Position numbers and translations under genes: made by a program. Of a stretch of 64,000 bases of DNA, positions 5,920 through 19,590 are shown one piece after another. Every line of letters begins with the position of its first letter. Position 1 is the first letter of the stretch. Location: positions 62,001 through 126,000 of the forward strand of contig NZ_FOXW01000003.1 in NCBI RefSeq assembly GCF_900115825.1, written 5' to 3'. Source of the DNA: Desemzia incerta (GTDB taxonomy: Bacteria > Bacillota > Bacilli > Lactobacillales > Carnobacteriaceae). The notes beneath the pieces were generated by a model. The model was given only the letters and a program-made list of their open reading frames with translations, did not search any database and had not been told where the DNA came from.

Positions 5920-5948
5920 TTGACAATTTATAGGCTTTCTAGTAATCT
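5920..5948 (+). promoter_or_regulatory. Promoter of the hisS-aspS T-box operon
   Basis: A consensus -35 TTGACA (5920-5925) is followed at 17 bp by TAATCT (5943-5948), just upstream of the T-box leader. Confidence 0.85.
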
Positions 5949-5954
5949 AGAGCT

Positions 5955-6213
5955 AATACAATAGATCTGAACCCGTTGAAAGAGAAAGTAATATTATTTT
6001 CCGTATCCTAAGAGAGAATTTTCGTTGGCTGAAAAAAATTCTGCGTGAAATAATATGAAAGACACTCCGGAGGGACAGTAGTGAAAAGCTGCTGCGTCAC
6101 GAGCGTTAATCGTAAAGGAAAGCTACCCAGCTTTCAAAACAAGGTGGTACCACGTGCTGACAAGTTCACTCGTCCTTATTTTGCTTATGGCAGAATAAGG
6201 ACGAGTTTTTTTT
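5955..6213 (+). promoter_or_regulatory. T-box leader controlling hisS-aspS
   Basis: tRNA-sensing riboswitch. The T-box core AAGGTGGTACCACG is at 6141-6154. The terminator is a 13-bp stem (6168-6180 with 6194-6206) followed by T8. In stem I the specifier loop has the expected AGTA on the 5' side and GAA on the 3' side, after which the sequence reads GACAC (6061-6065). GAC is an Asp codon and the overlapping CAC a His codon, matching the two synthetase genes downstream. Uncharged tRNA should favour readthrough. Confidence 0.93.
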
Positions 6214-6248: not shown

Positions 6249-7577
6249 ATGAGATTCCAAAAACCAAAAGGAACAGCTGATTTATTACCAGAAAATACAA
6301 AACAATGGCAATATGTAGAAGATACATTTAGAGCCGTATTTGCAGATTACCAATTTGAAGAAATCCGTACACCGATTTTTGAAAGCAAAGATTTATTTTC
6401 AAGAGGTGTAGGAGAATCCAGTGATATCGTTTCGAAAGAGATGTATATCTTCAAGGACAAAGGAGATAGAGAATTAGCATTACGTCCTGAAGGAACCGCA
6501 TCGGTTGCTAGAGCTTTTGTTGAAAATAAATTATTTGGTCCAGAACATACTAAACCGTATAAAGTTTATTACCAAGGTCCAATGTTCCGTTACGAGCGTC
6601 CTCAAAGCGGAAGAATGCGCCAATTCCACCAAATGGGTGTAGAAGTGTTCGGCAGTAAAAATCCTGCAACAGATGTAGAAACGATTGCATTAGCGATGGA
6701 TCTATTCCAAGAGTTGGGACTGGAAAGCTTAAAACTAGTGATCAATTCATTAGGGGATGTAGAAAGCCGTTTAGCTTATCGTGAAGCTTTGATCGCTTAT
6801 TTAGAACCTCATTTTGAAGAATTGAGTGAAGATTCTAAAACTCGTCTACACAAAAATCCATTACGTGTGTTAGACAGTAAAGACAGAAGAGACAAAGAAA
6901 TCGTAGCGAATGCACCATCGATTTTGGACTATCTGAATGAAACGTCTAAAAAACATTTCGAAGTCGTTAAAGAAATGCTGGACGCTTTGGAGATTCCATA
7001 TGTTATCGACAGCAATATGGTTCGTGGATTAGATTACTATAACGATACTATTTTTGAAGTCATGACAGAATCTGAAGCGTTTGGAAGTTTGACAACGATT
7101 TGTGCTGGTGGACGATACGACGGTTTAGTAGAAGAAGTCGGCGGACCAGCTACACCAGGTTTTGGATTCGGTATCGGAATGGAACGTTTATTAATGATCT
7201 TGGAAGCTGAAAACATTGAACTTCTTGAAGAAGAAGAGTTGGATGTATATGTGATCGGTATTGGAGAAGAAACAAACTTAGAAACATTGAAAGTTGTACA
7301 AGCCATCCGTGCTGCAGGAATGTCTGCTGACCGCGATTACTTGGACCGTAAATTGAAAGCTCAATTCAAAGCAGCCAACAAGAAAAATGCTCGTGTAGTA
7401 TTGACGCTTGGTCAAAATGAATTGGAACAAGGCGTGATCAACTTCAAAGTAATGAAAACAGGAAAAGAATCTGCTGTTGAACTAGAAGAGATCTATGATG
7501 GCGATTTTGAAAAAATCTTCAATTTAAAAGTTGCTGATATGACTGCATTTAACGAATTTTTCAAAAAAGAAGACTAA
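6249..7577 (+). CDS. hisS: Histidyl-tRNA synthetase
   Basis: Class II synthetase charging tRNA-His. The 442-aa product shows motif 2 ([17 protein letters not shown]), the HisA signatures [12 protein letters not shown] and [12 protein letters not shown], motif 3 ([11 protein letters not shown]), and the C-terminal anticodon-binding domain. The start is ATG 6249, because GAGGAG lies 9 nt before it; an in-frame TTG at 6228 would put the ribosome site inside the gene. It is the first gene of the T-box operon, with aspS 35 bp downstream. Confidence 0.97.
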
Positions 7578-7612: not shown

Positions 7613-9403
7613 ATGGCTAAACGAACAGTATATTGTGGCAAAGTCACTGAAGAACTAGTTGGAGAAGAAATTGTCTTAAAAGGTTGGGTACAAAAGCGCA
7701 GAGATTTAGGTGACTTGATATTTGTTGATTTGCGTGACCGTGAAGGAATCGTTCAAATCGTTTTTAACCCTCATTTTTCTAAAGAAGCTTTAGAGATTGC
7801 TGAATCTATTCGTAACGAATATGTCATCGAAGTAAAAGGAGCTGTAGTGAAGCGTTCGGCTGGAATGGAAAACGATAAATTACAAACAGGGCGTGTAGAG
7901 ATCGAAGCTCATGAAGTCACTGTTTTGAACGAAGCAAAAACTACTCCATTTTACATCGAAGACGGAGTATCGGTTTCTGACGAAAAAAGAATGGAATACC
8001 GTTACCTTGACTTACGTCGTCCGGAAATGACAAAAAACTTGATTTTACGTCACCAATTGACTAAAACAGTTCGAAACTTTTTAGACAACCAAAACTTTAT
8101 CGACATTGAAACACCGTATTTAACGAAATCAACTCCTGAAGGTGCAAGAGACTATTTAGTGCCTTCTAGAGTACATCCAGGACATTTTTATGCTCTTCCT
8201 CAATCACCGCAGTTGTTCAAACAATTGTTGATGGGAGCAGGATTTGACCGTTACTACCAAATCGTTCGTTGTTTTAGAGACGAAGATTTACGCGGAGACC
8301 GTCAACCAGAGTTTTCTCAAATCGATATCGAAACGAGTTTCCTGGAGCCTGAAGAGATCCAAACATTTACAGAAGAAATGCTGGCTAAAGTAGTTAAAGA
8401 AACTAAAGGAATCGATGTAACATTGCCGTTCCCTCGTATGTCTTATGACGATGCAATGAATCGTTACGGAAGCGACAAACCAGATATCCGTTTTGGGTTG
8501 GAATTGATCGCGCTAGACGATGTTGTAAAAGATTCTGGATTCAAAGTGTTTAGTGGAGCAGTAGCCAATGGCGGTATGGTAAAAGCGTTGAACGTTAAAG
8601 GAGCAGCAGATAACTATTCTCGTAAAGATATCGATGCTTTAGGTGAGTTCGTCGGTATTTACGGTGCTAAAGGTCTTGCTTGGTTGAAAGTCGACGAAGA
8701 AGGATTAAAAGGACCGATTGCTAAGTTCTTCAAAGAAGACGCAGAAGCATTGATGGAACGCACTCAAGCTGAACCTGGAGACTTATTATTGTTCGTAGCA
8801 GATAAATCATCTGTTGTATATGACGCTTTAGGAGCTTTACGTGTGAAATTAGGAAAAGAATTGAACTTGATCGATCAAAGTCAATTTGCTTTCTTATGGA
8901 TCGTTGACTGGCCTTTAGTAGAATACGATGAAAACGAAGACCGTTATACAGCTGTTCACCATCCGTTTACTATGCCGGAAGCAGATACTCTGCAATACTT
9001 GGAAGACCAACCAGATAAAGTAAGAGCTATTGCTTACGATATCGTATTGAATGGTTACGAATTGGGTGGAGGATCTATTCGTATCCACAAACGTGACATC
9101 CAAGAAAAAATGTTTAAAACATTAGGTTTCACTAAAGAACAAGCAGAAGAGCAATTTGGATTCTTGTTAGATGCTTTGGAATACGGATTCCCACCACACG
9201 GAGGAATCGCTCTAGGATTAGATCGTTTTGCTATGCTGTTGGCTGGGGAAGAAAATATTCGTGAAGTGATCGCATTCCCTAAAAATGGTCGTGCGGTTGA
9301 TCCGATGGCTAAAGCGCCAAGCATTGTAGAAGTAAAACAATTAGATGAACTGTCTATTCAAACCGCTCAAATCGAATCAGATGAAGAAGCAACGGAAGAA
9401 TAA
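7613..9403 (+). CDS. aspS: Aspartyl-tRNA synthetase
   Basis: Class IIb synthetase charging tRNA-Asp, 596 aa from ATG 7613. It contains an N-terminal OB anticodon-binding domain ([21 protein letters not shown]), motif 2 ([16 protein letters not shown]), the bacterial GAD insertion (about 290-420), and motif 3 ([15 protein letters not shown]). An in-frame TTG at 7604 is less likely because AGAAGGG lies just upstream of it and is better spaced for the ATG. Cotranscribed with hisS under the T-box. The C-terminus is strongly acidic. Confidence 0.97.
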
Positions 9404-9473
9404 TAACGAAGTTCTTTTTCGTAATCAGTCTCTTATAATAGAAATAAGTGTTTAGAAAAGGCAGGAGAATAAA

Positions 9474-10376
9474 ATGGTTTTGATTGGATCACACGTTTCA
9501 ATGAAAGGAAAAGAGATGTTGCTGGGAGCTGCCCAAGAAGCAGCCAGCTACAATGCCTCTACTTTCATGATTTATACTGGAGCACCTCAAAATACGCGTC
9601 GTAAAGCTTTAGACGAGATGAACATTCCAGCTGGAGAAGCCTTTTGCAAAGAAAATGGACTCTCTGATATTGTTGTTCATGCTCCGTATATTATCAATTT
9701 AGGCAATACCATAAAACCTGAAAACTTTGGGTTTGCTGTTGAGTTTTTAAGAGCAGAGATCGTGAGAGCAGAAGCATTAGGAGCTACTCAAATTACGATG
9801 CACCCAGGAGCTCATGTCGGAGCAGGAGCAGAAGCTGCTATCCAACAAATTGTTAAAGGATTGAATGAAGTATTGCATCCTGGACAAACAGCTCAAATCG
9901 CTCTAGAAACAATGGCGGGTAAAGGAACTGAAATTGGACGCTCGTTTGATGAGATTGCTAAGATCATTGATGGCGTCACATTGAATGAAAAACTATCCGT
10001 TACTCTGGATACGTGTCACACGAATGATGCAGGGTATAACGTGAAAGAAGATTTCGATGGAGTATTGAATGAATTTGACCACATTATCGGATTGGATCGC
10101 TTGAAAGTTGTCCACGTCAATGACTCTAAAAATCCAATGGGCAGTCATAAAGACCGTCATGAAAATATCGGTTTTGGAACGATTGGATTTGAAGCATTGA
10201 ATAAGATCGTTCATCATGAAGCATTGACTAAAGTGCCGAAAATTTTGGAAACACCTTTTGTTGGAGAAGACAAAAAGAACAAAAAAGCCCCTTATGGACA
10301 TGAAATCAATATGTTCCGCAAACAAGAATTCAATCCAAACGTATTGGATGACATCTTAAACGGAACAGCTTACTAA
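9474..10376 (+). CDS. nfo: Endonuclease IV (AP endonuclease)
   Basis: Zinc-dependent AP endonuclease of base-excision repair. The 300-aa TIM barrel carries the family motifs [30 protein letters not shown] and [21 protein letters not shown], which supply the three-zinc ligands. ATG follows GGCAGGAG. A TATAAT at 9434-9439 may be its -10 element. In Bacillus nfo (yqfS) lies near zur, as it does here. Confidence 0.96.
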
Positions 10377-19357: not shown

Positions 19358-19590
19358 AGAATTGAAGAAACAGCGTTGAAGGAAGAAGTAAAGATCTGAC
19401 CCTTGTTTAAAGCGATTTTGGGATAGTGCGAGCCAAATAACAAGAAGATTTTGAAAGGCATCTGGAGCTGAGACCAACAAAGATGCTAGTAGTGTTTCGA
19501 TAACAATACTAGAATTAGGGTGGAACCGCGGTTAGTGTATATAATCGTCCCTATGCTTAACGAACAGTGTTGAGCATAGGGACTTTTTTT
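19358..19590 (+). promoter_or_regulatory. Glycine T-box leader of glyQS
   Basis: T-box core TTAGGGTGGAACCGCGG is at 19515-19531. The terminator is an 11-bp stem (19547-19557 with 19573-19583) followed by T7. In the specifier loop GAAA is followed by GGC (19457-19459) and then A, giving a glycine codon as expected for glyQS. Confidence 0.94.

Follow-up and report, generated by a model that had tools for sequence, protein, structure and literature searches.

The window, i.e. the 64,000-nucleotide stretch of Desemzia incerta DNA analysed here, contains a T-box leader followed by the hisS and aspS genes, which are separated by 35 bases between the hisS stop codon and the aspS ATG (Table 1). The hisS gene shares 88% identity with its counterpart in Desemzia sp. 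RIT 804, and the genome belongs to the Carnobacteriaceae. A probable promoter lies ahead of the leader; the same arrangement of TTGACA and TAATCT is also found upstream of Carnobacterium-type leaders, and the site is absent from the output of a simple promoter scan. The stretch that separates aspS from the gene after it (9404–9473) yielded no terminator-like site. This next gene, at 9474, reads as endonuclease IV-like and has a TATAAT-like motif ahead of it (near 9434), so it may be co-transcribed with the operon or may have its own promoter. A preliminary description of this DNA had stated that the operon encodes exactly hisS and aspS; curated protein models bear out both genes, while "exactly" is slightly too strong since no terminator was detected after aspS.

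Table 1. Features of the hisS–aspS operon and its leader (positions are those of the window).
Feature	Position	Strand	Basis
Probable promoter (TTGACA, 17 bases, TAATCT)	5920–5948	+	Inference from reading of the sequence
T-box leader (RF00230) of the hisS–aspS operon	5967–6180	+	cmscan, 95.1 bits, E 1.4e-19, full model 1–219
GAG, 5′ strand of the helix under the specifier loop	5982–5984	+	Partition function; G5984 pairs with C6065
AGUA, 5′ side of the S-turn (loop E) in Stem I	5987–5990	+	Sequence, Rfam alignment
GAA, 3′ side of the S-turn	6057–6059	+	Sequence; unpaired in the fold
GAC, Asp specifier codon	6061–6063	+	Place relative to GAA and the lower helix; unpaired
CAC, overlapping His triplet with its last base in the helix	6063–6065	+	Fold; rate equals that of control T-boxes
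A, conserved purine stacking 3′ of the specifier	6064	+	Fold; role per PMC7583486
T-box bulge UGGUACC; N of UGGN is U6148, facing tRNA base 73	6145–6151	+	Sequence
Strong intrinsic terminator, an 18-pair hairpin followed by a U run	6168–6206	+	Overlaps the 3′ arm of the antiterminator
hisS, histidine–tRNA ligase	6249–7577	+	TIGR00442, 523.5 bits, over cut-off
aspS, aspartate–tRNA ligase	7613–9403	+	NF001750, 894.4 bits, and TIGR00459, 823.7 bits, both over cut-offs

The leader is a T-box, far beyond a chance match, with a full-length score of 95.1 bits against an RF00230 gathering score of 93 bits. It has the hallmarks of the family, i.e. an S-turn formed by AGUA and GAA, a UGGN bulge, a terminator that competes with an antiterminator (CGUCCUU is common to the antiterminator and the 5′ arm of the terminator) and the hisS–aspS genes downstream. 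The specifier loop reads, in order, GAA (6057–6059), A6060, GAC (6061–6063), A6064, C6065 and U6066. The GACAC reported earlier after GAA is correctly read and correctly located, with a single A (6060) between the two, and its GAC and CAC triplets do share one base (C6063). In the partition function of Stem I, GACA (6061–6064) is unpaired (pairing probability ≤0.1), while C6065 is paired with a total probability of 0.86, mainly to G5984 (0.69), and forms the first pair of the GAG/CUC helix. The GAC codon lies wholly inside the loop and is followed by a purine (A6064), and the stacking of such a purine under the codon–anticodon helix has a role known from crystal structures (PMC7583486). By contrast, CAC has no 3′ stacking purine, its next base being U6066, and a CAC reading would require opening of the first helix pair (G5984–C6065). 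The preliminary description had noted this difference in the following base and had concluded that Asp may dominate; this likely dominance is supported here, as are the single T-box, the Asp specifier in frame with a stacking purine after it, and the overlapping CAC.

We then compared this loop among homologous leaders. The hisS loci came from 148 genomes of the order and 121 genomes of the class, with some genomes in both sets, and from a further 80 named loci. Leaders were read from these loci and from fetched stretches, and specifiers were placed by a finder with codon and helix anchors, AGUA being used as an anchor. Leaders scoring below 13 were excluded (for the matched table and the tyrS/pheS control the threshold was 12 or 12.5), and 122 hisS–aspS leaders were placed after removal of identical contexts. 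Their specifiers are GAC (107 leaders), AAC (14) and CAC (1). The two bases that follow GAC are AC (50), AU (32), AG (6), CU (6), AA (5), CC (3), GA (2), UU (2) and CA (1), so that CAC or CAU (hereafter CAY) occurs in 82 of the 107 distinct GAC leaders and no His codon in the other 25. Leaders of the latter kind are found in all Trichococcus species seen (GACAG), in Alkalibacterium (GACGA) and in families f12 (GACCU, GACUU) and f19 (GACAA). The stacking A after GAC is present in the window and in most of the 107 relatives.

An in-register GAC with a 3′ purine is conserved across these 107 distinct homologues, as in a T-box for tRNA-Asp, and the GAC specifier is not a matter of chance. In a T-box working through two codons both should be conserved among homologues, and the preliminary description had held that homologues keeping only one codon would speak against such sensing; over the five bases, Trichococcus, Alkalibacterium and other groups keep GAC without CAY. 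On the hisS tree (FastTree, 140 rows), at least 11 gains or losses of CAY are needed among the GAC leaders. In 97 of 107 leaders the fifth base has a pairing partner on the 5′ strand (G–C 50, A–U 40, C–G 3, U–A 3 and one G–U); this count is mildly circular, as the 5′ helix entered into the score by which specifiers were located. As pairing is kept with changing partners, the fifth base behaves as a helix position.

The rate of CAY was also compared with that of T-boxes that have no reason to carry a His codon. T-boxes of the same genome were read locus by locus, some by eye, with gene names read from translations. Eight of 12 other NNC specifiers also give CAC or CAU out of frame: CAC in five cases (pheS UUC-AC, argG CGC-AC, tyrS UAC-AC, argS CGC-AC and thrS ACC-AC) and CAU in three (glyQS, a Cys T-box and the His-transporter T-box). 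In the tyrS T-box (UAC-AC-UCUG), the same out-of-frame CAC is followed by the same UCUC-like helix strand, but the specifier is Tyr and there is no histidine link. In a control drawn from 30 genomes and from two genes that are not linked to His, CAY occurs in 17 of 24 tyrS leaders and in all 15 pheS leaders, i.e. in 32 of 39 combined, compared with 82 of 107 GAC leaders (Fisher p 0.65). CAC by itself is less frequent in the GAC leaders (50 of 107 versus 30 of 39, p 0.001), which is the opposite direction. The second codon is, therefore, not commoner than in T-boxes without a reason for it, and the overlapping His triplet shows no sign of selection. Because the controls show an equal rate, the overlap needs only the shape of a T-box as its explanation: a specifier ending in C is followed by a stacking A and then by a helix base that is often C or U. 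Other T-boxes were seen alongside these. A second T-box in the window (19367–19555) precedes a glyQ-like gene, with specifier GGC and N = A, and was missed by the standard scan because it scores 77.6 bits in the genome search, below the gathering score. Tandem T-boxes in the same genome (contig C16, 16188–16456 and 16514–16769) precede an ABC transporter operon and both apparently have an AUG specifier.

The variable base of UGGN separates the two tRNAs further. Base 73 in the tRNAs of the same genome is G in tRNA-Asp and C in tRNA-His, the latter also carrying G-1. Among the 107 GAC leaders N is U (80) or C (27) and never A or G, and it is U in the window. Either base pairs with G73 of tRNA-Asp and not with C73 of tRNA-His, so UGGN is complementary to base 73 of tRNA-Asp in all 107 leaders; in the window this pair is a wobble only, which counts against the Asp reading. 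This discriminator evidence carries less weight for His than for other tRNAs, since pairing inside the tRNA can occupy C73 of tRNA-His; for this reason the His predictions of TBDB omit the discriminator (PMC7778990). A canonical His T-box does occur in the same genome, at an amino acid ABC transporter (L003/L431), with specifier CAC-A and UGGA. It resembles the hisS–aspS leader in architecture and in having CAC in the specifier loop, but its CAC has A as the next base and is entirely above the helix. His-transporter T-boxes across the family, which serve as a positive control, likewise have CAC then A above a UCUC helix, and their N is mostly A. The genome of the window thus appears to have a separate His sensor. 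The loop of these transporter T-boxes (L003 and L431–L447) is near-constant, reading GAACACACAUCUC (or GAAAACACAUCUC). Throughout the family, they stand ahead of the binding protein of a His-type ABC transporter.

The anatomy of the leader, the position of its specifier, the helix, the terminator, the discriminator match and the comparative pattern, all of which are read from the sequence itself, suggest that it is very probably a standard transcriptional T-box that measures tRNA-Asp charging and sets both hisS and aspS, with CAC as a by-product of RNA shape. For tRNA binding and the direction of regulation we infer from the T-box family that the anticodon GUC of uncharged tRNA-Asp would pair with GAC (6061–6063) and stack on A6064. 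The G73-CCA end would then pair with UGGU, the antiterminator would form and polymerase would read into hisS–aspS, while with charged tRNA-Asp the terminator (6168–6206) would win. The hisS gene would be carried along with aspS, and histidine status would be sensed elsewhere, e.g. by the transporter His T-box of the same genome.

A tentative extension, compatible with this tRNA-Asp explanation of the window leader, is that GACAC forms an evolutionary bridge: the leader would be Asp-specific today, and one G to A change would move GACAC to a CAC or AAC reading, as may have happened several times in Bacillales. Of the 14 leaders with AAC in place of GAC, 13 come from outside the order and 13 keep CAC or CAU (the Bacillales-type leaders L140, L142, L144–L147, L149–L150, L156, L224, L226, L233 and L263), and GAC and AAC interchange five times on the hisS tree, with at least four of these changes forced by starred branches. 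If every leader of the family were read by tRNA-Asp only, the AAC leaders with CAY would be left unexplained. However, N varies among the AAC leaders: family f11 has A, the base of most His-transporter T-boxes, and the others have C or U. Nor is loss of asnS an explanation: sensing of tRNA-Asn by AAC leaders through asnS loss was rejected as a general cause because asnS is present in 14 of the 16 AAC genomes examined and absent in one GAC genome. That the AAC leaders moved to histidine, a shift eased by GACAC, is speculation. Two other leader types were observed. In genome G034, a T-box about 300 bases before hisS of hisS–aspS reads AAC-AA with N = C, has neither an Asp nor a His codon and may be an Asn T-box. 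In the leaders of family f17 (L221, L228, L236 and L237, all upstream of hisS), which have GAACAC without GAC, UGGC-AACACG replaces UGGNACC; in L228, L236 and L237 the loop reads GAACACAAG, so that CAC comes straight after GAA in a different layout.

Joint sensing of both tRNAs by one leader, as the preliminary description had proposed, is unlikely from the present comparison. Such a leader would work in two registers, with GAC read by tRNA-Asp or, once G5984–C6065 opens, CAC read by tRNA-His, so that shortage of either amino acid would induce the operon. The loop does hold a triplet for each of the two genes, and CAY is the majority state, kept in the window's own genus and in many relatives. 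The idea also has a published history, as that description correctly indicated. PMC5313534 describes GACAC in the hisS–aspS T-box of L. parabuchneri (FAM21731_02461) as characteristic of such operons and credits Gutierrez-Preciado et al. 2009 with the suggestion that it mainly interacts with tRNA-Asp, while PMC4342826 credits the same work with two alternative structures sensing both tRNAs and lists a hisS–aspS GACAC leader for B. methanolicus. Since both GACAC and the sensing of both tRNAs are already published, neither the observation nor the idea is new. The window leader differs in nothing essential from the published ones, which have the same gene pair and a single T-box (with the same five bases in L. 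parabuchneri), and it adds a new species; the hisS–aspS leader is not named in the available part of Wels 2008. PMC7778990 further indicates that TBDB checks three frames and that one alternative-frame case from another operon has been studied by experiment (Saad et al. 2013, cited therein), in which a T-box with two codons in one specifier loop, for which two tRNAs were proposed, bound both. The window leader differs from that T-box in that its putative second codon is not conserved. The experimentally studied T-box is reportedly from C. acetobutylicum, with tRNA-Asn and tRNA-Glu as its partners.

Several observations argue against CAC as a second working specifier: (i) it reaches with its last base into the lower helix of Stem I and is not followed by a stacking purine; (ii) it has been lost repeatedly, in several clades that keep GAC; (iii) tyrS and pheS leaders have it just as often; and (iv) the U of UGGN cannot pair with C73 of tRNA-His. 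Slightly more doubtful again is the combined proposal that GACAC of the Desemzia group responds to both tRNAs through opening of G5984–C6065 and was a stepping stone to histidine-only AACAC leaders of Bacillales. It is most improbable that CAC is the sole working codon, because the window leader and its relatives in the order keep GAC at the standard position, lose CAC repeatedly and have U or C rather than A at N, although the S. aureus hisS–aspS leader is placed under histidine in PMC7927825, the f17 leaders lack GAC and the f11 leaders combine AACAC with the N of most His-transporter T-boxes.

In brief, an out-of-frame CAC or CAU is the usual look of a T-box specifier ending in C, and its rate in the controls means that overlapping codons alone are no ground for reading dual specificity. 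Dual sensing, if true, would make a single RNA an OR gate for two amino acids. The phylogenetic spread singles out the AACAC leaders of Bacillales as being of interest for tRNA binding.
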